Part shown: positions 15,721 to 42,667 of the stretch, in pieces
How the letters are laid out: each line of letters opens with the position of its first letter
How positions within the stretch are numbered: the stretch's first letter is position 1
Assembly (NCBI GenBank): GCA_040112665.1
Contig: CP157796.1
Location: forward strand, 2,567,501 to 2,631,500
Length of the DNA: 64,000 nucleotides
Direction: 5' to 3'
Source: Oceanicaulis sp.
GTDB lineage: Bacteria; Pseudomonadota; Alphaproteobacteria; Caulobacterales; Maricaulaceae
Notes under the pieces: generated by a model
What the model saw: only the letters and a program-made list of their open reading frames with translations
The model's database searches: none
Told to the model about the DNA's origin: nothing
Translations under genes and position numbers: made by a program

Positions 15721-15726
15721 GATCGC

Positions 15727-16353: not shown

Positions 16354-16934
16354 CAGCCACGCTCCTCGATCGTGAAGGTCCGCCCCGCCGAGCGGTGCAG
16401 ATATTCGAACTTGAGCGGCGCCGCCGTGACATAGCCCTCGACCTTGGGGCTCGCGATCTCGACGACCGCGTCGTCAGGCGGCGGAACCCGGATCAAGGGC
16501 CTCACGGGAAGCGTGATCAGCCCGCCCGCGTCTGCGGTCCGCGCGGCGCGGACCGTGTAGCAATAGCGCCGCCCCGAAATGATGACCGAGACAAAGGCGC
16601 CTTTATTGACGACATAGCCCGGCGTCACCCCGTCCAGATCGAGCGCGTTCCCGCCCTGCCCGGCACCGGCGACGCGCGGCGCGCCTTCGTTCGCCGCCTG
16701 CAGATCGCCCTGATCGATCGGCCAGACCAGCGTCTCGGTCTCTTCGTCGAGATCGGACCAGTCGAGCGCTTCGGCCTGGTCGAGCAGGGTCAGCGCCACG
16801 TCGAACGCAAAATGCCGGCCCAGCCGCGCCGACCGGCTGAGATTGGTTCCGTACGCAGACCGGTTTTCGGTCGGCTGGGGGACCAGGCGGAACGCCCAGT
16901 CCTTGACGCCGCCGCTGGGAAGCATGATCGCCAC
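16353..16934 (-). CDS. Tail protein downstream of tape measure, unrecognised family
   Basis: A 193-residue soluble beta-rich protein (MAIMLPSGGVKDWAFRLVPQP). It follows the tape measure gene after 4 bases, the position of the distal tail protein in siphoviruses; that role is inferred from order only. Translation is coupled to the next hub gene through a one-base overlap. Confidence 0.65.
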   Translation of the reverse strand: MAIMLPSGGVKDWAFRLVPQPTENRSAYGTNLSRSARLGRHFAFDVALTLLDQAEALDWSDLDEETETLVWPIDQGDLQAANEGAPRVAGAGQGGNALDLDGVTPGYVVNKGAFVSVIISGRRYCYTVRAARTADAGGLITLPVRPLIRVPPPDDAVVEIASPKVEGYVTAAPLKFEYLHRSAGRTFTIEERG

Positions 16935-16938
16935 GGCC

Positions 16939-19143: not shown

Positions 19144-19146
19144 GGA

Positions 19147-19730
19147 TCACCCCTTCCCCTGACCGGATCGCTTGCCGCGCCCGGCCGATTTCATGAGGTC
19201 TATCGCGCGGCCGTCCCGCGCCCTGGTTTCAAGCGCGGCCAGCTCCGCCTCGCGCTCCCGCGCTTCGAGGGTGTAAAGCGCCCGCCAGTGCGCGATCTCG
19301 CGCGCGCCAAGGCGCGAGACCTCGGCGGCGCTCTTGCCGAGGTCCCGCGCCAGCACGAACAGGAACCGCACGGACGGGCGGTCTAGTTTCCCGACGCCTC
19401 TTTCGCGCCGTCTTCACCGGCCAGATTGAGCGCCCTGATCTTCGCCATGAGCCGTATCAGGACTTTCCCGTTCTTTTTCGCCAGCGCCTCGACGTCATCG
19501 GCCGTGAACAGGCGGCTCCCGGCCTCGTCGATCGCCGACATGGAGATGGCGACCGCGAGCGCTCTGGACCCGTCCGCCTGTTCCGCCTCGGTCTCGTAAG
19601 CGAGCATGTCCACGCCCGACCACTCGCGAAGCCGGATCGCCCCGCCCCATTCGGGGACATCGACGTCCTCGGTTTTCAGATCCTCTGCGGCGAGTATCTC
19701 CGCAGCGCTGAGCAAAGCCTTTTTCGCCAT
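19147..19730 (-). CDS. Tail assembly chaperone GT fusion made by -1 frameshift
   Basis: Predicted extended product of the G gene. Ribosomes reading TCG GGA AAC TAG slip back one base on GGGAAAC and continue CTA GAC CGC into the downstream frame, giving 115 + 79 = 194 residues. The added T part has DLGKSAAEVSRLGAREIAHW, resembling DUF4035/GpT domains. The downstream frame has only a GTG with no good ribosome site, which supports production by frameshift. In lambda, the G:GT ratio controls tape measure coating during tail assembly. Confidence 0.75.
19383..19730 (-). CDS. Tail assembly chaperone (G-like)
   Basis: A 115-residue acidic helical protein (MAKKALLSAAEILAAEDLKTEDV) between the tail tube and tape measure genes, the conserved position of lambda G. 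It contains VPEWGGAIRLREWSG and ends at a TAG immediately after a slippery heptamer. It is expected to bind the tape measure protein and hold it for tube polymerisation. Start at ATG, 4 bases after the tail tube stop. Confidence 0.8.
   Translation of the reverse strand: MAKKALLSAAEILAAEDLKTEDVDVPEWGGAIRLREWSGVDMLAYETEAEQADGSRALAVAISMSAIDEAGSRLFTADDVEALAKKNGKVLIRLMAKIRALNLAGEDGAKEASGN
19386..19392 (-). promoter_or_regulatory. -1 programmed frameshift heptamer GGGAAAC
   Basis: In the G reading frame the bases are phased G GGA AAC, the canonical X XXY YYZ order, with a TAG stop as the next codon. Lambda uses GGGAAAG at the same place. After slipping, the frame is open through the T-like segment to 19147. 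Confidence 0.8.
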
Positions 19731-19734
19731 CGGA

Positions 19735-20142
19735 CTAGCTCGTCAGACGGCTGAGAACGCCGTCGCCGGGAAGCTCGACGCTGGTTTCCGCGAGATCGCC
19801 GACCGAGCCTTCAAGCGGACTGTATTGCCGGACCAGCACGTTTCCCGAATAGCGCGGGTTCGTCGCCGAAACCGAGCCCGATTTGGGCGTCATCGTCAGC
19901 GCGACGACCGAGCCCACGGCGGAGAACAGGGTCGCGTCGACCGAGCCGGCGTCGAAATCCTGATTGAAGTTCAGCGTCGCGGTGAAATCCTTCAGCCCGC
20001 CGATACGCCGGCGCGCGCCGTCGCCCATAGCGGTCCGGTCCTGTTCCTCGGCGGAATAGGTCAGGGACACCGATTTGACGTGATCGGTCAGATCGACCGA
20101 GTTCAGAACGACTTGCACGTCGTCGAGTATCAGTTCGGCCAT
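19735..20142 (-). CDS. Phage tail tube-like protein
   Basis: A 135-residue protein with DDVQVVLNSVDLTDHVKSVSLTYSAEEQDRTAMGD and FTATLNFNQDFDAGSVDATL. These are features of small siphovirus tail tube/tail-structure proteins, including the QD-TAMG turn seen in many alphaproteobacterial prophages. It follows a second, larger tail protein with a related start pattern (ELDRTSLAD), suggesting the two are paralogous tube components. Confidence 0.7.
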   Translation of the reverse strand: MAELILDDVQVVLNSVDLTDHVKSVSLTYSAEEQDRTAMGDGARRRIGGLKDFTATLNFNQDFDAGSVDATLFSAVGSVVALTMTPKSGSVSATNPRYSGNVLVRQYSPLEGSVGDLAETSVELPGDGVLSRLTS

Positions 20143-20155
20143 GTCGGAATGCTCC

Positions 20156-20872
20156 TTATTGCACGGCGAGGATCAACGCGACCGAGGCGCTCGCCTCGTC
20201 GCCGGTCAGGGTGAAAGACGGGCGGAACCAGGTGTGAGACGTCTCGCCCGAAAAGACGCCCCAGAAGCCGCCGACCGCGTCGATCGTCGGAAAGGTGATC
20301 CGCGTGGCAGGCGCGCTGAACGCGTCGCTGGCCGCAGACCGGACCAGCACGTCGAGCGACGCGCCGGCGGAAAGCGCGGTGACGAAAAGCGCGGCGTAAA
20401 GCTTGCGGCCCGCCTGGACGCTGGGAAGCTCCGACCCCGCTCCGACACCGGTCGCGGTGACCTCGCGAAGCGCGTTCAGCTTGCCGCGAATGATCGGGCC
20501 GTCGCTCATCGCGGCGAGATTGAATTCGGCGAGATCGCCGACCTCCCCGCCGAGCGGCGCATATTCGCCGACATGGACTTGCGCGGCGAAGGCCGTCGCG
20601 CCTTCCGCGGCGTCCGGCGCGGTCACGCCGACGACCTGCCCGGCGAGCCCGACCGCGCCGAACAACGCCGCATCGGTCGCCGACGCGTCGAAAAACCCCG
20701 TCGCCCCGATCCGGCCGTCTTCGAGGCCACCGCGGCGGCGGCGCGCGGTGTCGGCGAGCGACGTGCGGTCCAGCTCGGCGACCTCGCGCGCCAGGGCGAC
20801 CGAATTCGATTGAGAGGACAGGTTCGACCCGCCCAGAAAGAGGCGCTGATCGCGCAGCACAGTTTCGGTCAT
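20156..20872 (-). CDS. Major tail protein candidate
   Basis: A 238-residue beta-rich protein from the ATG of MTETVLRDQRLFLGG. It has NLSSQSNSVALAREVAELDRTSLADTARRRRGG, paralleling residues 10-50 of the smaller tail tube-like protein. It sits between the DUF3168 completion protein and the tube-like gene, where the major tail subunit is expected. Which of the two builds the tube cannot be decided here. Confidence 0.65.
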   Translation of the reverse strand: MTETVLRDQRLFLGGSNLSSQSNSVALAREVAELDRTSLADTARRRRGGLEDGRIGATGFFDASATDAALFGAVGLAGQVVGVTAPDAAEGATAFAAQVHVGEYAPLGGEVGDLAEFNLAAMSDGPIIRGKLNALREVTATGVGAGSELPSVQAGRKLYAALFVTALSAGASLDVLVRSAASDAFSAPATRITFPTIDAVGGFWGVFSGETSHTWFRPSFTLTGDEASASVALILAVQ

Positions 20873-20877
20873 CGGCC

Positions 20878-21288
20878 CTAGCTCCGGTAGGTGATCAGAA
20901 AATCGAGATTGCGGCGATAGCTGCCCGCGCCTCCGGCCGCAGGCGAACGGCGTTCGTCGAACCCGTCGAACGCGGTCTCGAACGCGCACCCCATGACGAC
21001 CGGGTTCGAGGCGGGATCGCGCCAGTCCTTCAGCGCAGCCTTTACCGCGTTCGCCAGCGCCGCGACGCCGTCGAACCCGGCGGCCTTGGCCGTGATCTGC
21101 ACGCGGCGCGGCGTGACGCCGGTGTCGGTCGTCATCGCCCGGACGCGGCCGTCGCTGACCAGCCGGTAAACCAGGTGCGGAAGCGCCGCGCCTTCGGGCG
21201 CCTCGACCGGGTAGACCCGCGTTCCGACGATCGCAGCGATCGCAGCGTCGCCGGTCAGCCTGGAAAACAGCACCGCCTCTTCGCTCAT
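20878..21288 (-). CDS. Tail completion/terminator protein, DUF3168-like
   Basis: A 136-residue protein: EEAVLFSRLTGDAAIAAIVGTRVYPVEAPEGAALPHLVYRLVS matches the DUF3168 pattern of siphovirus tail terminators, with an ITAKAAGFDGVAALANAVKAAL helix in the middle. It caps the tail tube and joins it to the head. It stands in the standard order between the HK97-gp10 family gene and the tail tube. A near-copy of the dispersed palindrome lies in its 3' part. Confidence 0.82.
   Translation of the reverse strand: MSEEAVLFSRLTGDAAIAAIVGTRVYPVEAPEGAALPHLVYRLVSDGRVRAMTTDTGVTPRRVQITAKAAGFDGVAALANAVKAALKDWRDPASNPVVMGCAFETAFDGFDERRSPAAGGAGSYRRNLDFLITYRS
20942..20958. repeat. Dispersed 17-bp palindrome, one-mismatch copy
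   Basis: GGCGAACGGCGTTCGTC, one base different from the consensus at 5953, 30682 and 37259. It lies inside the DUF3168-like gene. Confidence 0.4.
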
Positions 21289-21297
21289 CGCCCGCCC

Positions 21298-21741
21298 CTA
21301 GCGCCGCCGGCCCCGGCGTGCGCCGAGGCCCGATTTCGAATAGTTCCCGGCGACCTTTTTCGCCGCGCGTTCGAGCCGGTCGCCGAGCGCCTTGCCGATC
21401 GCGTCGAGCACCCGCATTTTCTCCGCCTCCCAGACCGGCCGCGCGAAGGGCGCGCGCTCTTCCTCGAAGACGGCGAAGAAGCCGCGCCGGAACCAGCCGA
21501 CCAGCACTTGCGCGGAGAACTGCGTCTTGCGCACCCGGACCCGGCTGACATTGCGTTCGAGCACACCGCTGACCTGATCGCGCGGCCGGCTCGCCGCCGC
21601 GTCGCGCAGCGCTTTCCTCAGCCCGTTCGATCCGGTCATGATCGCGCCTTCGAGTTCGGTCTTGCGCATGAAGGCGGGAAGGCGTCTCAGCGTGCGGTCC
21701 AGCTCCCGCGCGCCTTCGATCCGGGTTCTGATCTCGGTCAT
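21298..21741 (-). CDS. HK97 gp10-like head-tail morphogenesis protein
   Basis: A 147-residue basic protein beginning TRIEGARELDRTLRRLPAFMRKTELEGAIMTGSNGLRKALRDAA, the characteristic helix pair of HK97-gp10-family proteins. FAVFEEERAPFARPVWEAE follows, then an Arg-rich tail. It acts at the head-tail joint. Its start overlaps the head-tail adaptor stop by 4 bases. Confidence 0.85.
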   Translation of the reverse strand: MTEIRTRIEGARELDRTLRRLPAFMRKTELEGAIMTGSNGLRKALRDAAASRPRDQVSGVLERNVSRVRVRKTQFSAQVLVGWFRRGFFAVFEEERAPFARPVWEAEKMRVLDAIGKALGDRLERAAKKVAGNYSKSGLGARRGRRR

Positions 21742-22073
21742 GACGCGACCTCGGCGCGCGCGGTGATCAGAAGGCCCTCGCGCCGCCCGATTTCCTCGAT
21801 CCCGGTGATCGCGTAGAGCGTCCCGGCCTCGCCGGCCGGATAGCGAACGCGGTGATCGGTCTTCACGTCGGTCCGGAAATACACCCGGAAGGTCGAGACG
21901 CGGCTTGCGACCGCCTGGTCGTCTTCGCGTCCCTGGTCGTTCGACCGGTCGCGCTTTTCCGCCCAGACCTCGGACGCGTAGACAGACCAGTCCGAAGAGG
22001 CCGCGCCGGTCGCGCTTTGCGACGACCCGCGCGACAGCAGGTCGATCTGCCGATCAAGCGAACCGGATCGCAT
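21738..22073 (-). CDS. Phage head-tail adaptor (head closure) protein
   Basis: A 111-residue protein of the short SPP1 gp16/HK97 gp7-type joining family: GSLDRQIDLLSRG at the start, VYASEVWAEKRDR mid, and YRVRY-like VRYPAGEAGTLYAITGIEEIGRREGLLITA at the end. It closes the portal/connector after packaging. It overlaps the upstream connector gene by 20 bases and the next by 4. Confidence 0.85.
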   Translation of the reverse strand: MRSGSLDRQIDLLSRGSSQSATGAASSDWSVYASEVWAEKRDRSNDQGREDDQAVASRVSTFRVYFRTDVKTDHRVRYPAGEAGTLYAITGIEEIGRREGLLITARAEVAS

Positions 22074-22653
22074 GGGGGTTGTACACCAGATAGGAGCGAA
22101 GCACGCGGTCGACGGTCGCGTTCGGTTTCAGGTCGACGCCCATCGTCTGCGCTTCGCGATGTTGAAAGAGATCGGCCGCGATCAGCTTGATCGCGGACTT
22201 GATCGGTTCGGGCACAGAGGCCGCGCCGCCATAGCCGGCGGTGAACTCGATCGTCACCGCGTCGAGCGCGTCGGCGAGATCGGACGGCCAGGACTGGCCG
22301 GGATTGAGGGTGATCGCGCCCGGTTCGCTGTCGGCGTCCACGTCGTACACCGCCGGGTCGACGGTCGCCGTCGCGCCCAGGGCGGTTTTATAGGTGATCG
22401 CGTCCACGCTTTGCAGCGGCGCAAACGGAAGCCCCAGAGACCCGCGCCAGAAGCGCGGGAGCTTGAGCTCCCAGGTCTGGGTCAGAAAGGCGCGGTTCAA
22501 ACGCCCCCGGCGGCCTTCGAGCGAAGCTTCGGCCGAAACGATCGCCGCTTCGATCAACACATCTTCGCTGTCGGTCTGCCAGCGAAGATGCGCCTTCATG
22601 TCGGCGAGCGACACAGCCGTTCCGTCCGGCGCCGCAGTAAGGGACAGTCGCAT
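22054..22653 (-). CDS. Head-tail connector protein (gp6-like)
   Basis: A 199-residue protein. VSLADMKAHLRWQTDSEDVLIEAAIVSAEASLEGRRGR is the helical signature of the gp6/phiE125 gp8-type connectors, and IKSAIKLIAADLFQHREAQ near the C-terminus is also typical. It forms the ring under the portal. It lies downstream of the capsid block in canonical order. Confidence 0.82.
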   Translation of the reverse strand: MRLSLTAAPDGTAVSLADMKAHLRWQTDSEDVLIEAAIVSAEASLEGRRGRLNRAFLTQTWELKLPRFWRGSLGLPFAPLQSVDAITYKTALGATATVDPAVYDVDADSEPGAITLNPGQSWPSDLADALDAVTIEFTAGYGGAASVPEPIKSAIKLIAADLFQHREAQTMGVDLKPNATVDRVLRSYLVYNPHAIRFA

Positions 22654-22681
22654 GAACCGCGCCTTTCCAGTTCAGCCCGGC

Positions 22682-23134
22682 CTAGCCGACGATCTCGGCG
22701 ACGCTGGCCGCGTCGAAACCCGAGGCGGGCGCGTAGCGCGGTTCGAGACCGAGCACGATCCCGGCCGCGCCGGAGTTCGCGACAGCCGGCGTCACCGTCA
22801 GCCGGAAGTGACCGAAGCCGTTCGCGACGTCGAGTTCGTCGGGCGACAGCTCGATCAGCGCCTGCTTGTTGCTGTCGTCGGTCCCGGCCTGGGTGAGCTG
22901 GGTGATCGACTTTCCGGTCACGTCTTTCGCGCCGGTACCGGTATTGTCGGTCGCCTGTTCGAGCTTGGCGTCGAACGTGGCGTCGGACCCGAGCGCGCCG
23001 GCGAGGACGACCGCGACGAACTGATAGAAGTTCTTCGCTTCGATCCAGCCGGTCGAGATTGCGGACGTGCCGACCGCCGGCGACGCCGCGCCGACGACCG
23101 CCACCTTGTCGGAGGGAGGAAGGTTCGAGTTCAT
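22682..23134 (-). CDS. Phage head-associated protein, unknown function
   Basis: A 150-residue beta-rich protein (FYQFVAVVLAGALGSDATFDAKLEQATD, then VANGFGHFRLTVTPAVANSGAAGIVLG). It sits between the capsid terminator and the connector gene. Short proteins of this composition often follow capsid genes in alphaproteobacterial prophages; a decoration or head-joining role is possible but not shown. Abundant expression is plausible. Confidence 0.65.
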   Translation of the reverse strand: MNSNLPPSDKVAVVGAASPAVGTSAISTGWIEAKNFYQFVAVVLAGALGSDATFDAKLEQATDNTGTGAKDVTGKSITQLTQAGTDDSNKQALIELSPDELDVANGFGHFRLTVTPAVANSGAAGIVLGLEPRYAPASGFDAASVAEIVG

Positions 23135-23176
23135 GGTGTGCGCGCCTCCTAGCGCGAGCCTTGAAGGGATCTGAAA

Positions 23177-23213
23177 CGAAACGGGGCGGCCCGGTCAGGA
23201 CCGCCCCGTTTCG
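23177..23213 (-). terminator. Inverted repeat/terminator after the capsid gene
   Basis: A perfect 13-bp inverted repeat (CGAAACGGGGCGG / CCGCCCCGTTTCG) with an 11-base loop. Read from the minus strand it ends in TTTCGTTTC. It lies 39 bases after the capsid stop, so it could trim expression between the capsid and connector genes. Confidence 0.65.
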
Positions 23214-23251
23214 AGGGTCTTCAGGTTGACGGAACCGTCAGACGCCGGCGC

Positions 23252-24631
23252 TTAGGCGCGCGCGGCGATCTGGACGAAGTGCGACATGGACGGCTTGCCC
23301 TTGTCCGACGAGATCGGCGCGGACAGGTGCGGCTGACCGCCGAGACGGAAGGTCCAGCGGAACGCCGCCGCGTCGCGATCGAAATACAGATGGATCGACG
23401 ACGCGAACTTGATCTGTTCGCGCTTGGAGTACGACGCATAGCCCGCCGGGTTGATCAGCGTGAAGTCGCCCGCGTCGCCCAGCTTTTCGGCGTGCTGGGA
23501 ATACACCAGCGGGATACCGTTGATGAACCCGCCGACCCCGCGCGCGAAGTTGTCGGGGCTCGGCGGCGTATACACGATATTGTCGCCGATCGTCATCACG
23601 CCGAGCTGAGGGAGCGCGTCCTGCCCGCACATGAAGAACGAACGCGGGCCGAGGAAACACCGGCTCATAAGGCCGAAGATGTTTTCCGCGACGATCGTGT
23701 CGGCGGCCTGGCCCGCCTTCTTCGTGACGTTGATCACCGCCTGCGACTGGCGGAAGCCGAGCGGCCGGTCCTTGCCGTTGCCGTTGATGAAGCTTTCGAC
23801 TGCGGCATACCGGATCGCCTCGCCGGCCTTGCGGGTCAGACGGTTTTCAAGAAGCGGCGCGTCGCTAAGCAGCTCGTCGGACGCGGTGACGAGCGCGTAA
23901 AGCTTGTGCAGCTTCACCGCGCGCCCCTCCGTGCTGAGCTTCGACTTGGCCATCTCGCTCAGCTCGCCGGCCCAGCCGGCCTGAACGCCCGCCGCGCCCC
24001 AGGGCGTCGTTTCATCCGCGCCGCCCTCGACCGTGTTCGACGCGGTCGGTTCGGGATCGAAGCGATTGAGAAGCCCGTCGTCAGCGAAGACGACTTCCCA
24101 GATCGTTTCGCGGATTGCGGGCGGGACCATATAGCCCTCGCCGTTCGGACCGCCGGTCGTGTGCGTGTTGTCGCCCGTGACGCTCGCGGTCAGGCGTTCG
24201 TCGACCGAGCCGCCCACGATCGCCGCCCGGACGCTCGACGCAAATTCGGCCGCCGAATGAAACCCGCCCATAAGCACCGGGTCAGGATCATGCGCCCGCG
24301 CCGCGCCGAGCGCGGACGGACGCAGACGCTGGCCGGCCTCGTAGGGCCGCACGACTTCGATCGCCTGACCGGCGTCGACCGCGCCCGGATCGCTCGCGCC
24401 GCCGGCGAACAGCCGGTCGCGGTCGAGCCTGGCTTCGGCCGCCGCGATCTCGGTCTCGCACGCCTCGATATCGGCGGTGAGCTGTTCGATCGCCGCGCTG
24501 AGCGCGGCCATTTCGGCGGTCTCGGCGTCGGTCCGGTCGGTTTTGGCGTCGAGCGCGTCGAACGCCTTAGCCTTGGTGCGGCCGTCTTTTTTCAGCGCTG
24601 CCAGCCGCTCGCGCAATTCCTTCAGCTTCAT
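23252..24631 (-). CDS. HK97-family major capsid protein
   Basis: A 459-residue protein. The N-terminal ~90 residues form a charged coiled coil (KLKELRERLAALKKDGR), the delta/scaffold domain that the prophage protease normally removes. The rest follows the HK97 fold: TGGPNGEGYMVPPAIRETIW (about 158), VKLHKLYALVTASDELLSDA, ESFINGNGKDRPLGF and the C-terminal WTFRLGGQPHLSAPI. It forms the icosahedral shell. It follows the protease gene by 111 bases and has its own downstream terminator. Confidence 0.9.
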   Translation of the reverse strand: MKLKELRERLAALKKDGRTKAKAFDALDAKTDRTDAETAEMAALSAAIEQLTADIEACETEIAAAEARLDRDRLFAGGASDPGAVDAGQAIEVVRPYEAGQRLRPSALGAARAHDPDPVLMGGFHSAAEFASSVRAAIVGGSVDERLTASVTGDNTHTTGGPNGEGYMVPPAIRETIWEVVFADDGLLNRFDPEPTASNTVEGGADETTPWGAAGVQAGWAGELSEMAKSKLSTEGRAVKLHKLYALVTASDELLSDAPLLENRLTRKAGEAIRYAAVESFINGNGKDRPLGFRQSQAVINVTKKAGQAADTIVAENIFGLMSRCFLGPRSFFMCGQDALPQLGVMTIGDNIVYTPPSPDNFARGVGGFINGIPLVYSQHAEKLGDAGDFTLINPAGYASYSKREQIKFASSIHLYFDRDAAAFRWTFRLGGQPHLSAPISSDKGKPSMSHFVQIAARA

Positions 24632-24742
24632 TGAAGGGTTCCTTTTTGCTCTTGCCGGGCGTTAAACATTTCCAGCCTGTCCACCGCCCGGCGTAAGGCG
24701 ACGGCTGGAACTTGTCGGACCTGTTCGGCGACAGGTCTGAGA

Positions 24743-25636
24743 TCAGAGATCGAAGGCCATGCGCGCGGCGCGGCCGACCCGCGGCGCGCCAGCCCGGCGC
24801 GCGGGCCGTGCCAGCCCGGCGACGACGGCGTCGAGCGTGGCGATCCGGTCGATCATGCCGGCCGCCTTCGCGGCCCGACCCTTCATGATCCGCCCCCGGC
24901 CGTACTGGTCGAGCACGTCGCCGGGCTTGATACCCCGCCCCTTCGCGACCGCTGCGACGAAGAGCTTCAGCTCGGCGTCGACCAGGCCCTGAAGATGCGC
25001 CCGCGCCTCATCGCTGAGATCGTTTTCGGGATAGGTTTCCACCTTTTCCAGGGTCGAGCTGACCAGCGTGACTTTCACGCCCTGCGCTTCGAGCGCGGCC
25101 TTGACGCTGGTGTGCGTGCCCACCACGCCGATCGACCCGACCACCGCGCTTTCAAGCGCGACGATCTCCGAACACGCGCTCGCCAGCCAATAGGCCGCCG
25201 AGGCGCACACCGTCTCGACCATTGCGATCACAGGCTTGGTCGACGCCGCCTTCCGAATTTCCTCGGCGGCCTCGGCGAGCCCGAAGGTCGCCCCGCCCGG
25301 ACTGTCGAACCGCAGCACGATCGCGGCGACCGCATCGTCGGCGACCGCTTCGCGAAGACGCTCGGTCAGCCGGGTGAGCGACGCGCCGAAGGAAATCCCC
25401 AAAAGGCGCTCTACCGGCGAGGGATGCATCCGGATGAAGCCCGAAACAGGGAGGATCGCGACGCCGCCCTGCGTGGTCGCCTGGCCGACCGCCGCAGCGG
25501 ACACGCGAACGCCGTTCGCGTTGATCGCCGCTTCAGCTTCGCGCGCCGCGGCGAGATACGGCGCGGCGAGGTCGATATCCACGGCGCAAAGCCCGCCGAG
25601 CGCGGCGAGCGCGGCTTTCAGTTCCTCAGTCAACAT
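24743..25636 (-). CDS. Head maturation protease, S49/SppA-like
   Basis: A 297-residue serine peptidase expected to process the prohead. Visible features are GGVAILPVSGFI (about 58), RFDSPGGATFGL (110-120), the nucleophile Ser146 in ETVCASAAYWLAS, and GSIGVVGTHTSVKAAL with a candidate catalytic Lys at about 179. The order portal-protease-capsid is canonical. It overlaps the portal gene end by 11 bases. Confidence 0.88.
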   Translation of the reverse strand: MLTEELKAALAALGGLCAVDIDLAAPYLAAAREAEAAINANGVRVSAAAVGQATTQGGVAILPVSGFIRMHPSPVERLLGISFGASLTRLTERLREAVADDAVAAIVLRFDSPGGATFGLAEAAEEIRKAASTKPVIAMVETVCASAAYWLASACSEIVALESAVVGSIGVVGTHTSVKAALEAQGVKVTLVSSTLEKVETYPENDLSDEARAHLQGLVDAELKLFVAAVAKGRGIKPGDVLDQYGRGRIMKGRAAKAAGMIDRIATLDAVVAGLARPARRAGAPRVGRAARMAFDL

Positions 25637-26963
25637 CGTCGACCCCCTGTTCGAGCTTGATCGATTTAAGCGCAGCGGCGAGCTGGTCCGGGTCGCACCC
25701 GTCCAGGGCGGAGACCAGGGCGCGCACGCCGGGGCTCGCGCCCTGTTCGCCCTGGCCGGCTTCGCCCATGTTCATGGGCGTGAGGTAGATATCGCCAGCC
25801 GGGCCGATCGGATTGAGGTTTTCGCGCCTGAGAATGTCGTTCACAGACAACCAGCCCCATTGACGGCCGATCGCATACGCCGCGTAGCGCGCGCCGAGAT
25901 CGCCGCGGAGCAGCGCCGCGAGGACGTGCTCGGCGTAGAAGCGGCCCTTCGCGATGATCAGATCGCGGCGGACCGCCTGTTCCCAGGCTTCGAGATAGAC
26001 CAGCAGCGTGTCCTGAACGAATTCGAGCGCCTGTTGCTCGATATTGGAGAAGGTCGCCTTTTCCAGATCGCCGACCTTGTGCGGCGGAATGTCGAAAAGC
26101 GCGATGATCTCGCGCGCGGTCGCCTGCCAGGTTTCGAGAAATTGCGCCTCATTGTTCTTGACCCCGCCCTTTGTGATCGTCGCGCCGAACGGAACGATCT
26201 TCGTTTCGTGCCGGCGGCGCGGCGAAGTCTTTTTTCTGATCCAATCTAGAAAGTTGTCGCGCTCTTCGTCGTTCGCGAACCAGCCGTCTTTCATTGAAAT
26301 CCAGTCGCCGGCGCCGCCGTTGTTCTGAAAATAGCTGTTTGCATATTCCTGCAGCGCGAGGGCCTTTGAAAACGTCTCCCGCCCCAGCTCGAAAATCGGC
26401 TTCGGCGTGATCCCGTCTTCGCGATAGGGCGGAAGCTGGACGCGGAACACTTCAGAATGATGAAGCATCCGCCGGCCCATTCCGTCCCGGCCCGGGGCCT
26501 CAAACCAGAGTTCGCCGCGCACCCGGCGCGGCTTCACGTCGCCGGCGGGCAGGTGGCGCAGCTGGTCGACAGCCCCGCGATCGCCCGGAACGATTTCCGC
26601 ATAGGCGCCGCGCCAGAACGCCAGATCCCAGGTCATCGCCGTGCGGAACTCGAGCGCGGTCTGTTCGGCGTTCGGCGCGTAGCGCAACAGATCGGACAGC
26701 GGGTGATCCGCCGCCTCGGCCTTGGTTCCGTCCGCGCGCCGCTCGTAGATTTTAAGCGGGAGCGAGCCGACCGACTTCGCGATCTTGTTCGCACAGGTGA
26801 CGACGAGCGCCAGGCGCATGACCGTGCGCGCGGAGACCGGATAGCCCGCGGCGGTGACGATCGGATCGTCGACGTCGCCTGACCAGCCGAGATCGCCCTC
26901 GGCGGTGACCGCGCTCGCGCCGGAGAGGCCGAAGACCGCACGGATCGAAGAAACCAAGCCCAT
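25626..26963 (-). CDS. Phage portal protein, HK97 family
   Basis: A 445-residue protein: TVMRLALVVTCANKIAKSVGSLPLKIYER (about 45), the ALALQEYANSYFQNNGGAGDWISM region (about 200), and FDIPPHKVGDLEKATFSNIEQQALEFVQDTL (about 290), all standard for HK97-type portals. It makes the dodecameric vertex through which DNA is packaged. It starts one base after the terminase large subunit stop. Confidence 0.92.
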   Translation of the reverse strand: MGLVSSIRAVFGLSGASAVTAEGDLGWSGDVDDPIVTAAGYPVSARTVMRLALVVTCANKIAKSVGSLPLKIYERRADGTKAEAADHPLSDLLRYAPNAEQTALEFRTAMTWDLAFWRGAYAEIVPGDRGAVDQLRHLPAGDVKPRRVRGELWFEAPGRDGMGRRMLHHSEVFRVQLPPYREDGITPKPIFELGRETFSKALALQEYANSYFQNNGGAGDWISMKDGWFANDEERDNFLDWIRKKTSPRRRHETKIVPFGATITKGGVKNNEAQFLETWQATAREIIALFDIPPHKVGDLEKATFSNIEQQALEFVQDTLLVYLEAWEQAVRRDLIIAKGRFYAEHVLAALLRGDLGARYAAYAIGRQWGWLSVNDILRRENLNPIGPAGDIYLTPMNMGEAGQGEQGASPGVRALVSALDGCDPDQLAAALKSIKLEQGVDDVD

Positions 26964-26964
26964 G

Positions 26965-28659
26965 TCAGGCCCTCTCGTAGAAGCCGGCGGAGATCGAGAC
27001 CCGTTTGCTGTCCGGTTCCTTGCTCACGCCGGCGTGAATAAGTCCGACGCCCATGATCATCGTCATGACGCCGTCGACGCGGAGCTTCTGGGACGCCTTG
27101 AACGGCATGTAATTCTCTTTCCCGTCGACGCGGACCGAGACGTTTCCGAGCATCCAGTCGGTGATCGGGTTGCCGTCATGGCAGAACCGGCCGTCAGCGA
27201 TCAGCGCCTCGAACTCTTTCGACGGGCCGGAAAAGCTCGGCATGCCCTGGCGATATTCGAAGACCTCGAACCCGTCCTTTTCGAGCTGGTTCGCGATCGC
27301 CTGGGCGTTCCACGGGTCGACGCCGATGACCTCGAACCCGTGTTCGTCGCGCAAGGCCCTGATCTCTTCGAGGACGCGGTCGTAATCGACCCGCGCGCCC
27401 GGCGTGGCGATAAGGTGACCGGCCTCCTTCCATTGCAGGTACGGAACGCCGTCGTTTTCGGACCGCGCGACGACGCCGACTTCCGGGCAGAAATAGCGCT
27501 GCAGGAAGCGCCAGGGCTCGCGGTCGTTTCCATCATCGCCCCAGGTCAGACACAGAGAGGTCAGGTCGGTCTTGCTCGACAGGTCGAGGGTGCAGACCGG
27601 CCGCCGGCCGGCGACGTCGGACAGGATGAAGGGCGCGCGGTTGCGGTCGAGCGCTTCGGTCTCGAACCAGCGGCTTTCGACTTCAAGCCACTGGTTACAC
27701 CGCTTGCGGCGAAACTCGCTTTGCCGGGCGGGCTTGGCGAGCGCCTGGTCGCGCTGGCGCTTGAGAACGTCGAGCGTCACCGAGACGCCGAGATTGGGGT
27801 TCGCCTTGATCCAGACGCTTTCGTCTTTCCAGTCGTCGCCGTCGTCGAGCCCGGCGATATAGACGAAGGTCGTGTCGTCGTCGAAATTCCCTTTGACGAC
27901 CTCTTCGCCGTAGGTCCGCTTTTCCCAACAGACCGCCGCCTTGTCCGAACTCGACCCTGCAGTCGTGATTATCAGGGTCAACGGCTGGTCGCGCGAGCCC
28001 TCGGCGCTTTCGATCACGTCGACCAGGTCGCGCGTCTTGTGCGCGTGAAGCTCGTCGATCACCGTGCAATGCGGGTTGAGCCCGTCCTGCGTCTGGGCGT
28101 CGCTCGACAGGGCGCGGAACTCGCCGTCGCTCGGCCGATGGAAAATCACGTTTTCCTTGATGTCGAACAGCTTGCGCAGGGCGGGAACCGAACGCGCGAG
28201 ACGGCGCGCCTCGGAAAACACGATCTTCGCCTGGTCGCGCTTCGTCGCGGCGGAGTACACTTCCGGCGCGCCCTCCCCGTCCAGGCCGAGCATGTAAAGC
28301 GCGGCCCCGGCGAGCAGGGTCGATTTTCCGTTTTTGCGGGCGACCTCGATATAGGCCGAGGTGAACCGGCGAAAGCCGTTCGCCTTTTTCCAGCCGAACA
28401 GAGACCCGACGATGAAGCACTGCCAGGGTTCGAGCCTGAAGTGCCCGCCCGCCCCGCGCCCCTTGCCGAGCCTCAGCTGTCCGAAGAACCGGAAGGCCCG
28501 GTTCGCCGCCTCTTCGTCGAAGTGAAGGCCGCGCTCCGCGCCGGTTTGCAGATCCTTCAGGTGACGCTCGCACGCCAGCCGAACCAGCCGGCCGGCGAGT
28601 ATGTCGCCCTCGACCACGGCCGTCGCGTAGGCCGTCGTCAGGTGCATCGGTGCGGTCAC
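26965..28659 (-). CDS. Terminase large subunit
   Basis: A 564-residue packaging motor. The N-terminal ATPase has Walker A ARKNGKST (residues 107-114) and Walker B TVIDELHAH (199-207), followed by the coupling motif LIITTAG. The C-terminal nuclease part has CTLDLSSKTDLTS with the first acidic residue at about 353, and VIGVDPWNAQ later. It is of the Terminase_1/HK97 group, normally cos-type. It follows the small subunit gene after 4 bases. Confidence 0.93.
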   Translation of the reverse strand: MTAPMHLTTAYATAVVEGDILAGRLVRLACERHLKDLQTGAERGLHFDEEAANRAFRFFGQLRLGKGRGAGGHFRLEPWQCFIVGSLFGWKKANGFRRFTSAYIEVARKNGKSTLLAGAALYMLGLDGEGAPEVYSAATKRDQAKIVFSEARRLARSVPALRKLFDIKENVIFHRPSDGEFRALSSDAQTQDGLNPHCTVIDELHAHKTRDLVDVIESAEGSRDQPLTLIITTAGSSSDKAAVCWEKRTYGEEVVKGNFDDDTTFVYIAGLDDGDDWKDESVWIKANPNLGVSVTLDVLKRQRDQALAKPARQSEFRRKRCNQWLEVESRWFETEALDRNRAPFILSDVAGRRPVCTLDLSSKTDLTSLCLTWGDDGNDREPWRFLQRYFCPEVGVVARSENDGVPYLQWKEAGHLIATPGARVDYDRVLEEIRALRDEHGFEVIGVDPWNAQAIANQLEKDGFEVFEYRQGMPSFSGPSKEFEALIADGRFCHDGNPITDWMLGNVSVRVDGKENYMPFKASQKLRVDGVMTMIMGVGLIHAGVSKEPDSKRVSISAGFYERA

Positions 28660-28663
28660 GGGT

Positions 28664-29143
28664 CTAACCGTTCGTTCCGTTGATCTTCTTGGCGAAGTCG
28701 AAAAGGTCGTCTTGTTCGCCGAGCGCGAGGCGCATGCGCGCGAGCGGCGACATGCCGAAGTCGGACGCGCAGGAGTGAATGATCTTGATCAGCTCGTTTC
28801 GCCGGCCGACCTCCGGGCGGTTCTTGCGCTGCGTACCGTTCCGGCCCTTCGAGGTGTAGGTGAACCCCTCCTGTTTGAGCTCGCGGGTCACCTGGTCGTA
28901 TTCGCTGACGGCCTGGCAGTAGATCGCCAGCCGCATGACGTCCAGCTTGTCCAGGATGCCTTTTGCGCTGAGGAGCGGAACGATCCGGCGCCATTCCTCC
29001 ATCGCGATCCGGTCGTCGAGCATGAACTCAGGCGGGTCGAGCCGCTCATCCTTCACGACGTCGCCGCGGGCGGCCTCGTGGGGAATGAACGCGTCCGCGC
29101 CGCCTTCGAGCGCGACAAGGTAAGGCTTTTTACCCTTGCTCAT
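28664..29143 (-). CDS. Terminase small subunit, P27 family
   Basis: A 159-residue protein: RLDPPEFMLDDRIAMEEWRRIVPLLSAKGILDKLDVMRLAIYCQAVSEYD matches P27-type small terminases, with the following EGFTYTSKGRNGTQRKNRPEV and MRLALGE segments. It recognises the packaging site and loads the large subunit. It is preceded by a 156-base non-coding stretch that may hold that site. Confidence 0.88.
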   Translation of the reverse strand: MSKGKKPYLVALEGGADAFIPHEAARGDVVKDERLDPPEFMLDDRIAMEEWRRIVPLLSAKGILDKLDVMRLAIYCQAVSEYDQVTRELKQEGFTYTSKGRNGTQRKNRPEVGRRNELIKIIHSCASDFGMSPLARMRLALGEQDDLFDFAKKINGTNG

Positions 29144-36383: not shown

Positions 36384-36511
36384 AATTGGTGCGGGTGATT
36401 TGCCCCGATCCGTCAACCCCTTTCGGTGACTTTGCACCGAACCGGCGCTCAAATCTCACCGCGAACGCCCGCAAAATAGCTGGGTGCTTTGGTGATTTCG
36501 GAGGCCCGGCC

Positions 36512-36847
36512 ATGTCGCGCGCTTACGGCGCCGTCCGGCGAGACGTACCCCATCGTCTGCGCGAGATACGTCACGCGCGCGGGCTGACGATCGAACAGCT
36601 CGCCGAGCTGGTCGGGCTCACCTATCAGACCGTGCAGAGATACGAGACCGGCGACCGCTCGCTGCGCGTCGAGGACCTGCCGCGGTTCGCCGCCGTGCTG
36701 AAATGCCGGCCCGGCGATCTTGTAGACGACGACAGCGCCGATCCCGACGAGCTGGTCGCCCGTGACCTGTTCCGAAAGCTCAGCCGTGAAGACCGCAAGC
36801 GCTTACTTGCGGCGATGAACGCGTGGGCCGGCGACGACGCCGCCTGA
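36512..36847 (+). CDS. CI-like phage repressor (XRE family)
   Basis: A 111-residue protein from an ATG with GGAGG seven bases upstream. HRLREIRHARGLTIEQLAELVGLTYQTVQRYETGDRSL is a textbook XRE helix-turn-helix (about 12-50). The remainder is helical (DPDELVARDLFRKLSREDRKRLLAAM) with no LexA/CI-type autoprotease domain, so SOS-triggered self-cleavage is not expected. It is divergent from the Cro-like gene and convergent with the immunity gene. It probably maintains lysogeny through the GCACC-N5-GGTGC sites. Confidence 0.78.
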   Translation: MSRAYGAVRRDVPHRLREIRHARGLTIEQLAELVGLTYQTVQRYETGDRSLRVEDLPRFAAVLKCRPGDLVDDDSADPDELVARDLFRKLSREDRKRLLAAMNAWAGDDAA

Positions 36848-37217: not shown

Positions 37218-38561
37218 ATGACCGCAGCAACCGCCGAAGCCCCCGCCGGGACAGCAGAGGCGAACGGCGTTCGCCCGCTTCCGCCCGAACCGGTGAACGT
37301 CAGGGATACCGCCCTTCTGGCCGAACTCGCCGGGCGGGCCGAGCCCGCTTTGGCGCTTGAACTGGCCAGGGCGCTCGACCGGTTCGATCCGGTCAAGAAG
37401 CGCTTTCGCTCCGATCTGGTCCTGCGCAGCCTCAGAAGCTTCGCCGATCAGGGGCTGGTCAAGCTCAGCCATGAAGGCGAGGGCGCGACGATCACGCCGC
37501 GCGGGCTTGCGATCTGGCGCGCGCTTTCAGGTCAGACCGATCAACCCGGAGAAGGCGGCGCGTTCGGCGTCATTCACGATCTGATCGAGCCCGACCCGGA
37601 CAATCCGCGCACCCTGTTCGACGGCGACGCGATCGAGGACCTTGCGCAAAGCATCGCCGACGCCGGACAGGTGCTTCAGAACCTCATTTTGCGCCGCCAT
37701 CCGGACGCGGAGAAAGCCGCAGCCGGCCGCTTCATGATCGTCGGCGGCGAACGCCGCTGGCGCGCGGTCGGAACGCTGATCAAGGCCGGGCGCTGGCCGT
37801 GGAACAGGCCGCTTCCTGCGATCGTCCGCGACTACGCCGAAGACGACCCGCACGCCGCGCGCGTCGACGCGCTTGTCGAGAACCTGCAGCGGGTGAACCT
37901 GAGCCCGCTTGAAGAGGCCGAAAGCTTCGAGCGCCTGCGCAAGGCGGGCCTGTCGACCGCCCGGATCGCCGAACGCATCGGCCGCACCCAGAGAAACGTG
38001 CAGCAGCGCCTGCAGCTTCTGAAGCTCGACCCGGCCGACCGCGCCCGCCTCGCGAGCGGCGAGATCACCGTCGAACAGGCTCGCGCCATGCTGAGCGCGG
38101 GGAGCGGCGATCAGACGGCGGAGGCGTCCGCGCCGCGTCCGATCCCGGCGGCGCGACAGCGCCAGTTCTGGACCGAGTTTCTTTATCAGGACAAATACAT
38201 TCCCGACGCTACGCTGATTGCAAACCTGTCCCGGCGCTATCGGCTGTCGCGCGAGGTGGCCGAGGCGTCGATCCATGACGCCAGCGCGGCCGGCGTGATC
38301 GCCGGGAACACGCAAGGCTGGCGTCTGGCGAGCCCTGACGTCCAGGACACGACCCCGCCCGCCCCGCCCCCCGCCGACGACCCCGCGAGCCTGTACGCCG
38401 CCGCCCGCGCGAAGGTGCTCGACGCGCTCGAAGACCTCGCGCGGATCGTCGTCACCGAGATCAGCAATTCCAACAGCCACAACCTCATTCTCTCCGCGCT
38501 GGAAAGCGGCGCGGACGGGCTGAAGGCCGCGCACGCGCGCGAGAAAGGCGACCGCAAATGA
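37218..38561 (+). CDS. ParB/Srx-domain protein
   Basis: A 447-residue protein. Residues about 30-105 look like a winged helix (RSDLVLRSLRSFADQGLVKL and an ITPRGLAIWRAL wing). The ParB N-terminal CTPase-type domain follows: DLIEPDPDNPRTLFDGDAIEDLAQSI (about 120), VGGERRWRAVGTL (about 176), then VENLQRVNLSPLEEAESFERL and the helix-turn-helix STARIAERIGRTQRNVQQRLQLL (about 252). No ParA gene is next to it, so a regulatory or DNA-spreading role is as likely as partition. First gene of the rightward operon; the 17-bp palindrome lies in its 5' end. Confidence 0.8.
   Translation: MTAATAEAPAGTAEANGVRPLPPEPVNVRDTALLAELAGRAEPALALELARALDRFDPVKKRFRSDLVLRSLRSFADQGLVKLSHEGEGATITPRGLAIWRALSGQTDQPGEGGAFGVIHDLIEPDPDNPRTLFDGDAIEDLAQSIADAGQVLQNLILRRHPDAEKAAAGRFMIVGGERRWRAVGTLIKAGRWPWNRPLPAIVRDYAEDDPHAARVDALVENLQRVNLSPLEEAESFERLRKAGLSTARIAERIGRTQRNVQQRLQLLKLDPADRARLASGEITVEQARAMLSAGSGDQTAEASAPRPIPAARQRQFWTEFLYQDKYIPDATLIANLSRRYRLSREVAEASIHDASAAGVIAGNTQGWRLASPDVQDTTPPAPPPADDPASLYAAARAKVLDALEDLARIVVTEISNSNSHNLILSALESGADGLKAAHAREKGDRK
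37259..37275. repeat. Dispersed 17-bp palindrome, copy 3
   Basis: GGCGAACGGCGTTCGCC, exact copy, 42 bases into the ParB-like gene, encoding EANGVR. It is the copy closest to a gene for a DNA-binding protein. Confidence 0.6.
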
Positions 38562-40105: not shown

Positions 40106-40396
40106 ATGAGCACCCTTCCCGCCGGCATGAAGCCTGTCATGGTCACCACCAAGCATCGCGGCGTGTTCGCCGGGCTCGTGCCCGACGACGCCGACCTCGC
40201 ACAGCCCACGCTGGCGCTGAAATCGGCCCGCATGGCGATCAAGTTCGGCACGACCAGGGGCGTGCAGCAGCTGGCCGAGAGCGGCCCGACCGGAAACTCG
40301 AAGATCTCCGCGCCGGCCGATATTCCGGTCCTGCACGACGTGACGGCCGTGTTCGCCGTGACCGAAGCGGCCTGGGCGAAGTGGGAGGCGGCGTGA
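40106..40396 (+). CDS. Small phage protein, DUF6948-like
   Basis: A 96-residue protein from an ATG with AAAGGAG in good position. MKPVMVTTKHRGVFAGLV at the start, the middle ARMAIKFGTTRGVQQLAESGPTGNSKIS, and the end AVFAVTEAAWAKW resemble the short DUF6948 group of phage proteins; this is from memory of the pattern. Function unknown. It leads directly into the repeat-protein gene with a one-base overlap. Confidence 0.65.
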   Translation: MSTLPAGMKPVMVTTKHRGVFAGLVPDDADLAQPTLALKSARMAIKFGTTRGVQQLAESGPTGNSKISAPADIPVLHDVTAVFAVTEAAWAKWEAA

Positions 40397-40824
40397 TGGA
40401 TCGCGATCGGCTGGTCACGGCGGACGATCTTGTCCGCGGCGGCTGTTGCCGAGACGGCGTGCGCGCGGCCCTTCTCAGAGAACACGAGAAGGGCCGCGCC
40501 GCGGCGGCCATGCCCGTTCGCGGCGTCGTCGCGCTCGCGACCGCGAGCGAGCGCGAGCCGGTGAGGCGAGCGCTTCAGCTCGACGGCTACGGCTACGGCT
40601 ACGGCGACGGCTACGGCTACGGCTACGGCTACGGCGACGGCTACGGCGACGGCTACGGCGACGGCGACGGCTACGGCGACGGCTACGGCGACGACTACGG
40701 CGACGGCGACGGCTACGGCGACGGCTACGGCTACGGCTACGGCTACGGCTACGGCTACGGCTACGGCTACGGCGACGGCTACGGCGACGGCTACGGCGAC
40801 GGCGACGGCGACGGCGGATACTGA
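40396..40824 (+). CDS. Gly-Tyr/Gly-Asp repeat protein
   Basis: A 142-residue protein. Residues 1-62 form a small helical domain (LVTADDLVRGGCCRDGVRAAL and VVALATASEREPVRRAL). Residues 64-139 are almost wholly a Gly-Tyr / Gly-Asp dipeptide repeat encoded by in-phase hexamers, ending GGY. I recall similar GYG-repeat tails behind a short domain with a D-L-x-x-G-x-C-x-x-G motif in other phage genomes, but no function is known to me. The repeat is acidic and aromatic, probably unfolded and sticky. Its start shares one base with the upstream stop and it precedes the next gene by 12 bases. Confidence 0.72.
   Translation: MDRDRLVTADDLVRGGCCRDGVRAALLREHEKGRAAAAMPVRGVVALATASEREPVRRALQLDGYGYGYGDGYGYGYGYGDGYGDGYGDGDGYGDGYGDDYGDGDGYGDGYGYGYGYGYGYGYGYGDGYGDGYGDGDGDGGY
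40585..40812 (+). repeat. Hexanucleotide tandem array (38 units of GGCTAC/GGCGAC)
   Basis: Thirty-eight consecutive 6-base units, all in phase with the host gene. Each unit is GGCTAC or GGCGAC except one GACTAC at 40693. The order of the two types is irregular, with runs of up to eight GGCTAC units at about 40723-40770. Such an array can gain or lose units without breaking the frame. Confidence 0.95.
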
Positions 40825-40836: not shown

Positions 40837-41118
40837 ATGGATCAGGCCTATCTTGATCTCATCACGACCGGCCGTCAGGCCCGCGCCTTCCGCGCCGAAC
40901 ATGAAGCCCTGTTTGACCGGCTCCATCTGCGCGGCACGGCGATCCGCTGGGCGATGGGCGGAACCGTTCGCTCGGGTGTCGTCATTTGCAGCGGCTTCGG
41001 GCGAAGACTTCTGGTCGCGGCCTTTGAAAGCGACGCGTGCCAGTGGCTCATGCCGTCGCGTGTGATCCTGCCTGACGGCCGCGAACTGGCCGAAGCCCTG
41101 AGCAACGACCGAGCATGA
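40837..41118 (+). CDS. Small phage protein, unknown function
   Basis: A 93-residue protein (MDQAYLDLITTGRQARAFRAEHEALF), helical start followed by beta-rich VRSGVVICSGFGRRLLVAAF and VILPDGRELAEAL. It looks like a compact soluble fold. No family recognised. Overlaps the next gene by 4 bases. Confidence 0.6.
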   Translation: MDQAYLDLITTGRQARAFRAEHEALFDRLHLRGTAIRWAMGGTVRSGVVICSGFGRRLLVAAFESDACQWLMPSRVILPDGRELAEALSNDRA

Positions 41119-41372
41119 ACGCCCCCTCCCCCTCCCGGCGCGCCCCGCGCGCATACCCGCCAGACCGCGAGATCAGGCGCGCGCTCGACGCGGCGCGCGC
41201 GGCGGGGTTAAATCCGGCCGGGTTCACGATCGGCCGGACCGGGGAGATCACCGTCTTTGAACAAGCGCCGCACGCCGCCGAACCCGCGCCCGCCGACGAC
41301 GCGCCGGACCCCGCGCGCGCCGCGCTCGACGCCCGCCGCCGGCGCAAGGCCGGCGAGCCGGGCCGAGGCTGA
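41115..41372 (+). CDS. Small phage protein upstream of integrase
   Basis: An 85-residue protein. YPPDREIRRALDAARAAGLNPAGFTIGRTGEITVFE is a helix-strand unit found in proteins that commonly sit just upstream of phage integrases in alphaproteobacteria; the rest is Ala/Pro/Arg-rich and disordered. It may be an excisionase-like or accessory factor, but nothing shows this. It ends 10 bases before the integrase start. Confidence 0.58.
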   Translation: MNAPSPSRRAPRAYPPDREIRRALDAARAAGLNPAGFTIGRTGEITVFEQAPHAAEPAPADDAPDPARAALDARRRRKAGEPGRG

Positions 41373-41382
41373 GGCCGCCGCC

Positions 41383-42543
41383 ATGTCCGGCGCGCCGCCC
41401 GCCCGCATTCATCGGGTTTCGAAGATCCTTTCAGGCGGCGAACGCCGCTGGTTTTACTACGCCTGGCGCGGCGGCCCGCGCTTCTGGACGTGCGACGGCG
41501 CGCCGGTCGACTACGCCCGCCCGCCCGAAGGCTTCGGCGCCGCGCTCGACGCCGCGCGGGCCGAGGGCCGCCAGACGGCCGCAGGCCGCACCGGCGCGCG
41601 CACGGTCAGCGCGCTGATCGACCGCTACCGCCGGTCCGGCGACTTCGCCAGGCTGAGCGAGGCGACGAAAGAGACGTATGGCGTCTATTTCGCCCAGATC
41701 GAGGCGGAGTTCGGAGACGACGCCGTCATCGCCTTCGACGATCCTGAAATCGTCGACGACATTCTCGCCTGGCGCGATGAAAAGGCCGCAGCGGGCCAGC
41801 TCCGCGCCGCCGATCACCGGGTCCGGGTGCTCGCGCGGCTGTTATCGTTTGCAAGGCTTCTGAAATGGTGCGCGCACAATCCCGCCCAGGGCGTCCCGCG
41901 CCTTTATGACGCCGACCGGTCGGAGATCGTGTTCAGCCGGGCCGAGCGGGCGCTGATCTTCGAAGGCGGCCCGGCCGCCGATCCGGAGACCGGCCAGGTG
42001 CGCCAGGTCGCCCCGGCCGAGCCCCATCTCGCGGCGATCTTCACCCTGGCCTTTTACACTGGCGCGCGCCGCGCCGATCTCGCCGCCATGCCGCTCAGCG
42101 CCGATCACGGGCTCGAACTGGTCTGGCGCACGTCCAAGAGCCGGGGGCGGACCGAGGCGATCGTTCCGGTCCTTCCCCCGCTGCGCGCCCTGATCGATGC
42201 GCGCCGCGCTCAGGCCCAGGCCGCCGCGCCCGCGGAAAAGACCCGGATCGCGGCGACGACGATCCTGACGACCTCGCGCGGCCGGCCCTGGACACGGCGC
42301 GGCCTGTCCGACGCGGTGGCCAAGCGCCTGGCCGAATGTGCGATCACCGGAAAGCACCTTCACGACAGCCGGGGCACGTTCGCGACCGAGTTGTGCGAAG
42401 CGGGCTTCAGCAACGCCGATATCGCCGAGTTCTGCGGATGGAGCGGCGACGAAAAGAAGGTCGCGCGCATCCGCGCCCGCTACGTCAACCGCGCCGCACT
42501 GGCGCGACAGCGCATCAAGCGATGGAACGACGGGAAGCGATAG
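41383..42543 (+). CDS. Tyrosine-family phage integrase
   Basis: A 386-residue site-specific recombinase. Residues 1-70 may be the arm-binding domain, 75-170 the SAM-like core-binding domain (TVSALIDRYRR to HNPAQGVPRLY), and the rest is catalytic: Arg229 in TGARRADLAAM, Lys252 in TSKSRG, His327-Arg330 in HLHDSRGTF, Trp353 in CGWSG, and nucleophile Tyr367 in RARYVNR. It sits 77 bases from the attR core, which lies in a tRNA gene, as is usual. The ATG at MSGAPPARIH was chosen; an upstream in-frame ATG would overlap the preceding gene heavily. Confidence 0.92.
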   Translation: MSGAPPARIHRVSKILSGGERRWFYYAWRGGPRFWTCDGAPVDYARPPEGFGAALDAARAEGRQTAAGRTGARTVSALIDRYRRSGDFARLSEATKETYGVYFAQIEAEFGDDAVIAFDDPEIVDDILAWRDEKAAAGQLRAADHRVRVLARLLSFARLLKWCAHNPAQGVPRLYDADRSEIVFSRAERALIFEGGPAADPETGQVRQVAPAEPHLAAIFTLAFYTGARRADLAAMPLSADHGLELVWRTSKSRGRTEAIVPVLPPLRALIDARRAQAQAAAPAEKTRIAATTILTTSRGRPWTRRGLSDAVAKRLAECAITGKHLHDSRGTFATELCEAGFSNADIAEFCGWSGDEKKVARIRARYVNRAALARQRIKRWNDGKR

Positions 42544-42620: not shown

Positions 42621-42667
42621 AATGGTCGGAGCGGCCGGATTCGAACCGGCGACCCCTGGTCCCCCAG
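42621..42667. other. attR core within tRNA-Pro
   Basis: The second copy of the 47-base core, here part of the intact tRNA gene from the anticodon loop to the 3' end. The phage attP therefore supplied a new functional 3' half, and the tRNA survived integration. Confidence 0.93.

Follow-up and report, generated by a model that had tools for sequence, protein, structure and literature searches.

The window, a stretch of 64,000 nucleotides from the Oceanicaulis sp. contig CP157796.1, contains a complete-looking 36.8 kb prophage (5811-42667) that lies in tRNA-Pro and has its ends set by a 47 bp direct repeat. Towards its right end lie two small overlapping genes: a DUF6948 gene and a gene for a Gly-X repeat protein, hereafter the GX-repeat gene. 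The ATG of the GX-repeat gene overlaps the DUF6948 stop codon as TGATG (40394-40398), and the gene ends 12 bases before the next open reading frame (ORF). This arrangement meets the definition of a DUF6948-GX cassette used throughout (GX immediately downstream of DUF6948, on the same strand, overlapping or abutting). The GX-repeat gene is placed between the helix-turn-helix (HTH) regulator and ParB-like genes on one side and the integrase on the other, in the early/lysogeny arm of the prophage, and the cassette is on the strand opposite to the structural block. The only PADLOC matches were generic HTH ones, to the repressor. Coordinates are collected in Table 1.

Table 1. Features of the prophage and of the DUF6948-GX cassette, in window positions.
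Feature	Position	Strand	Description or evidence
att site, left copy	5811..5857	.	47-bp exact direct repeat
Structural block: terminases, portal, protease, major head protein, tape measure, tail fibre	10851..29143	-	
Cro/CI-type HTH regulator	36386..36847	+	Gene-family scan; same arm as GX-repeat gene
ParB-like protein	37218..38561	+	Gene-family scan
DUF6948 gene	40106..40396	+	Pfam PF22253, E 4e-22; AlphaFold2 pLDDT 95.9; Foldseek and VIA matches to Sm/LSm
GX-repeat gene, 142 aa	40396..40824	+	ATG 40396, TGA 40824; 62-aa N-terminal GAC domain and acidic Gly-Tyr/Gly-Asp tail
N-terminal GAC domain	40396..40581	+	Motif T-x-D-D-[LIV]-x(3)-G-[AC]-C-x-x-G-V; AlphaFold2 pLDDT 82.7
38-unit in-frame hexamer array	40585..40812	+	Sequence, TRF
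93-aa ORF, no assigned function	40837..41118	+	Directly downstream of GX-repeat gene
Prophage tyrosine integrase	41257..42543	+	Gene-family scan; adjoins right end
att site, right copy, tRNA-Pro 3' end	42621..42667	.	47-bp exact direct repeat

The initial annotation described a 38-unit in-frame Gly-Tyr/Gly-Asp array at this position, and both the array and its coordinates were correct when the sequence was re-read and analysed with TRF. The array consists of 22 GGCTAC, 15 GGCGAC and one GACTAC hexamers in a single frame. TRF reported a period of 6, 38.8 copies and a score of 354, compared with scores of 51-62 for the six remaining tandem arrays of the window (seven in total). The third codon bases are C throughout all 38 units, and variation is confined to unit position 4 (T for Tyr, G for Asp) plus the single G-to-A change in the GACTAC unit. 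An excess of repeated blocks within this array was not significant (P = 0.11). A 355-residue antisense ORF on the minus strand (40087-41154; AVAVAV...) is likely spurious, since it owes its existence solely to the lack of stop codons in the array when read in that direction.

The tail of the window protein is strongly acidic (pI 4.05, net charge -17) and contains 24 Tyr, and the N-terminal 62 residues, which include the sequence DLVRGGCCRDG, form a basic domain (pI 9.7). We defined a family of GAC-domain GX proteins by a T-x-D-D..GAC..GV domain with a Gly-X tail directly behind it, and the window protein has both. When aligned, 32 further domains from phage proteins were 24-52% identical to that of the window protein, with T8, C18, G21, V22 and A38 invariant across all 33; this conservation supports translation in the frame of the array. 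The AlphaFold2 model of the GAC domain comprises two strand-helix-helix units, and because a fold search of the PDB with this model gave no meaningful match, we claim no fold for it. Searches of Pfam, PHROG and NCBIfam with the domain likewise returned nothing beyond chance. The initial annotation had suggested finding out whether this domain always carries such a tail. A degenerate DNA motif for the GAC domain, searched without demanding a tail, retrieved 24 loci (20 viral and 4 bacterial), of which 23 carry a Gly-X tail. The sole tail-less locus (L157) is a chance match, and the domain passes this check. Candidate relatives in the host's family, sought with the GX N-terminal sequence, were rejected, as all the 20-bit matches inspected were noise.

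Neither the DUF6948 gene nor its predicted fold featured in the initial annotation. The encoded protein is a clear member of PF22253, matching the full length of the model at 78.5 bits (gathering cut-off 27, E 4e-22); Pfam assigns the family no function. The AlphaFold2 model (61 sequences; pLDDT in Table 1) has five strands and a C-terminal helix. When this model was searched against the PDB with Foldseek, the best 50 matches were all Sm/LSm proteins or spliceosomal Sm chains (probability 0.96-1.00, best E 0.013). VIA-align placed 3by7 first (Z 6.5 over 72 residues), a metagenomic protein whose entry describes structural similarity to Sm/LSm-like RNA-binding proteins, followed by LSm1-7 and archaeal Sm proteins. 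Although 3by7 is the best VIA match, it shares only 12% identity with the window DUF6948 protein. We take 3BY7 to be phage-borne, of putative cyanophage origin, and a pentamer. VIA Z scores below 8 may mean a shared arrangement only, unrelated small barrels included, though the list of matches is uniform. DUF6948 had no match among PDB sequences, and none of the Pfam LSM models fired on the 61 DUF6948 members, SM-ATX appearing once at chance level (E 0.1). The window DUF6948 protein is only mildly basic (+1, pI 8.1). Given the uniform list, the Z scores below 8 and the absence of sequence or Pfam LSM matches, we describe the protein as Sm-like by predicted fold, not as a proven Sm protein; the similarity is moderate and structural only.

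The association of the two genes extends well beyond the window. Viral contigs were scanned for runs of ten Gly-(Tyr/Asp) codon pairs in a row, which gave at least 120 stretches, most of them small proteins with irregular Gly-Tyr/Asp/Ser/Asn tails. Counting only arrays with at least 500 bp of upstream sequence, 83 of the 102 Tyr-containing arrays among the matches listed directly follow a DUF6948 gene in the same orientation. Ten of the remaining Tyr-array loci have a divergent DUF6948-like gene (VVVDRGWIFAGDV...) upstream, and hhalign of eight aligned divergent copies against DUF6948 gave an E of 1.3e-6 and a probability of 91%. A few Tyr arrays lie behind other genes (L034 and L066, VWA-like; L088, L043 and L064). 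Gly-Asp-only arrays also occur in viral contigs (22 among the matches listed, with a cut of <10% Tyr). Only 1 of 17 mostly Gly-Asp arrays among the matches listed lay behind DUF6948, and that one contains Tyr; these arrays are mostly a separate class without DUF6948.

The reverse search used DUF6948 proteins or the Pfam model as query and did not demand an array. It found an array of at least eight units downstream of 78 of 84 DUF6948 genes; of the six exceptions, five have a shorter array of five to seven units. Of 142 cases, 117 have the nearest GX ATG overlapping the end of DUF6948, most often at -13, -16, -1 or -4, and no DUF6948-GX fusion was found among 178 DUF6948 genes. The two genes form a conserved phage cassette with the GX-repeat gene in second place, and the pairing is well supported in both directions.

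Several loci depart from this simple arrangement. L034 and L066 carry tandem MKYPKGYGYG...YPY repeat genes behind a von Willebrand-A-like gene, which is a second genetic setting for the same tail, and L223 has three tandem DUF6948 genes, at least two with their own repeat gene behind. At L071, L079, L115 and L130 the Gly-X array is fused ahead of another conserved phage domain (YWLSC..YFAAKW ... GALKREI), and at L024 a GAC-like domain stands behind the array. These fusions indicate that the array is a mobile module.

Using tblastn, no phage match was obtained with the GX protein, its N-terminus or the window DUF6948, and the window DUF6948 had no match among plasmids; divergent DUF6948 subfamilies were needed as queries to reach named phages. 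With such DUF6948-like queries, the pair was found in Rhodobacter phage RcapNL, the Rheinheimera Barba phages, Pectobacterium phage Taid, Iodobacter phage PhiPLPE, Vibrio phage IKEMa6-1 and ctOK67, where the repeat gene is annotated 'lamprin'. A degenerate version occurs in ct8d5349, in which a low-complexity Thr/Asp/Glu repeat gene follows just downstream of the degenerate Gly-X gene (L168 3626-4024). The PhiPLPE annotation omits an evident Gly-Tyr/Asp/Ser repeat gene that follows DUF6948 (L165, about 1173-1410). The gene behind DUF6948 in Chlorobiaceae phage CV-1-33 (L167 3283-3528) was deposited in another frame (MAMALAMA...); the annotated frame is probably wrong, as a Gly-Asp/Ser/Tyr array is open there.

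The genomic neighbourhood bears on whether the chain could coat the virion or the cell as an adhesive. Gly/Tyr-rich chains are adhesive elsewhere, as in a tick cement glycine-rich protein (PMC11794139), and the initial annotation had listed a surface module among its suggestions. We consider this improbable, as the window gene lies in the early/lysogeny arm on the strand opposite to the structural genes, the Barba cassette sits between DNA polymerase and exonuclease genes, and the leaders of the GX proteins are, by inference, unlike signal peptides.

To describe how the arrays evolve, codon statistics were calculated for loci sampled via DUF6948 alone; some were near-duplicates, leaving 73 distinct arrays (2159 units). 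Mean entropy was 0.19 bits at each of the synonymous positions (3 and 6), 1.03 at position 4 and 0.87 at position 5, and non-synonymous exceeded synonymous entropy in all 73 arrays. The X residue was Tyr in 33% of units, Ser in 27%, Asp in 26% and Asn in 4%. Ala codons were depleted, with 28 observed against 178 expected under independence of positions 4 and 5. The third bases of the Gly and X codons are near-fixed inside an array and differ between arrays, in seven combinations (GGC/GGT/GGA/GGG). Since the fixed synonymous bases differ between arrays, the protein pattern is what is conserved. The simplest reading, which we infer, is rapid homogenisation through unit turnover together with selection on the amino-acid mixture.

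Near-fixation of synonymous bases within an array is also what might be seen if the repeat acted as DNA or RNA (a recombination hot spot, decoy sites or a replication element) and the protein were incidental, and in several named phages the cassette does lie near recombination genes (RecE/Bet, Erf, exonuclease) or replication genes. We nevertheless hold this to be very improbable indeed, because the Gly-X pattern persists while the synonymous bases vary between arrays, an in-frame start is present in all the arrays sampled, Ala is under-represented among the X codons and the N-terminal domain is conserved. Neutral slippage, by which a small gene would merely harbour a meaningless expanded repeat, fits the fact that arrays do slip, with excess repeated blocks in 19 of 82 long arrays. 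It is very improbable to us given the near-obligate pairing in both directions, the restricted X alphabet, the consistent excess of non-synonymous diversity and the absence of stops and frameshifts. The array was also considered as the target of a diversity-generating retroelement and rejected: position 4 varies T/G here and mostly T/G/A elsewhere, which is not the adenine-specific pattern of such elements, and no reverse transcriptase matched among the neighbouring window genes scanned.

Turnover of whole units can be followed in near-identical phages. Among 60 Barba records listed, the stretch was 792 bases long in 41, 798 in 17, and 822 and 834 in one each. Barba1A and Barba15S differ by one extra unit with flanks identical at 2900 of 2900 positions; in Barba12A the flanks are identical and the unit order is changed; and Barba19A and 31A differ by two units. 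In another pair (L047 and L062), with flanks 99.4-99.6% identical, the uninterrupted GY/GD run is 21 units in one and 48 in the other. The change in length and unit order without loss of frame predicted by the initial annotation is thus seen in the Barba phages and in L047/L062; the evidence comes from these related phages and not from this strain. According to the available text of their description, the first Barba isolates were plaque-purified and sequenced with Illumina short reads at 193x to 4,789x (PMC6715854). On this partial account small assembly errors remain possible, but it is unlikely that these would always amount to whole units. A genome of the same genus (G096; L264/L274, end of contig 39) carries a similar Gly-Tyr/Asp array whose upstream gene lies beyond the contig. 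The contig ends in this array, indicating that assembly broke in or near the repeat.

Within the open literature (subscription papers were outside the search), we found no paper on DUF6948 or on such phage tails, no description of a GX partner for PF22253, and no prior description of the DUF6948-GX partnership. By analogy, the nearest tested parallel to the mechanism proposed below is Hfq of E. coli and Caulobacter, in which disordered, acidic C-terminal domains regulate the Sm core, according to the portions of the sources available (PMC5606850, PMC6561178). On that limited basis, the likeness is a Sm-type barrel whose nucleic-acid binding is tuned by a disordered acidic chain, although in the cassette the fold is predicted and the function inferred. 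The cassette differs in that a gene of its own encodes the chain, which is periodic in Gly-X and rich in Tyr, and we found no sequence similarity to Hfq. Rof/YaeO is likewise a small Sm-like protein; as far as the accessible part of its source goes, it can act through protein contact (Rho inhibition) and not as an RNA chaperone, and no GX partner is mentioned there (PMC11018626). The Tyr-Gly low-complexity chains of the FUS/hnRNP type, which undergo Tyr-driven phase separation (PMC5704491), resemble the GX chain in the even spacing of Tyr among small polar residues, whereas the GX chain is strictly Gly-X, acidic, phage-borne and without an RNA-binding domain of its own.

As the best mechanism we tentatively propose, while judging it short of an even chance, that the Sm-like product of one gene binds nucleic acid and that an acidic, aromatic and disordered chain, encoded separately by the other, competes with that nucleic acid or condenses it. 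The first gene would supply a small Sm/LSm-like barrel, for which ring formation and single-stranded nucleic-acid binding are inferred. The second, usually started inside the last codons of the first, would supply a disordered (Gly-X)n chain, in which X is most often Tyr, Ser, Asp or Asn, preceded by a short leader or a small helical domain. This chain may act in trans on the Sm-like ring, as the acidic tail of Hfq does in cis, either competing for the nucleic-acid face or drawing rings and nucleic acid together as a condensate during early infection. Slippage or recombination would turn over the 6 bp units so that length drifts and frame is kept, with selection holding the amino-acid mixture. 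The pairing, the gene overlap, the fold prediction, the composition, the turnover and the codon signature are observations; ring formation, nucleic-acid binding, contact between DUF6948 and GX, and condensation are inferred only, there being no contact, ring or RNA-binding data. The sticky or condensate-like tail suggested by the initial annotation similarly remains an inference without experimental support.

The main rival to this Sm-ring and disordered-partner mechanism is a counter-defence or neutralising pair, in which GX would target a host factor as a sticky decoy or effector, with DUF6948 as its chaperone, antidote or carrier and an arms race as the driver of fast turnover. The genes are small, located in the early region and highly variable, and PF22253 occurs in only 3 of 385 genomes of the host's class (the host's among them) and in none of 14 control genomes, making it a rare, phage-borne feature of bacterial genomes. 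Set against this, there was no match to known defence proteins, although the library used contained no counter-defence proteins, and phages that differ greatly share the X alphabet and leader style, as would fit a general physical role. We therefore regard counter-defence as possible but rather unlikely.

Extended to its full reach, the Sm-ring and disordered-partner proposal would make the cassette a dedicated two-component ribonucleoprotein-condensate system of tailed phages in several bacterial groups, in which a phage Sm ring is joined by a separately encoded (Gly-Tyr/Asp/Ser)n scaffold that rapidly tunes its length, the number of repeats determining how strong the condensate is in early infection. 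This is speculative, and we think it unlikely. In its more immediate meaning, the work unites DUF6948 and the GYG-tailed 'hypothetical proteins' of phages as one recurrent cassette with a structural clue, the Sm-like fold. The Rheinheimera Barba phages and Rhodobacter phage RcapNL are isolates that allow functional study. The cassette also offers a natural system whose repeat length shifts from one near-identical phage to another while selection acts on its composition. If it is true that both proteins form a nucleic-acid-binding condensate, the cassette would be a two-gene phage analogue of eukaryotic Sm/LSm granule chemistry.
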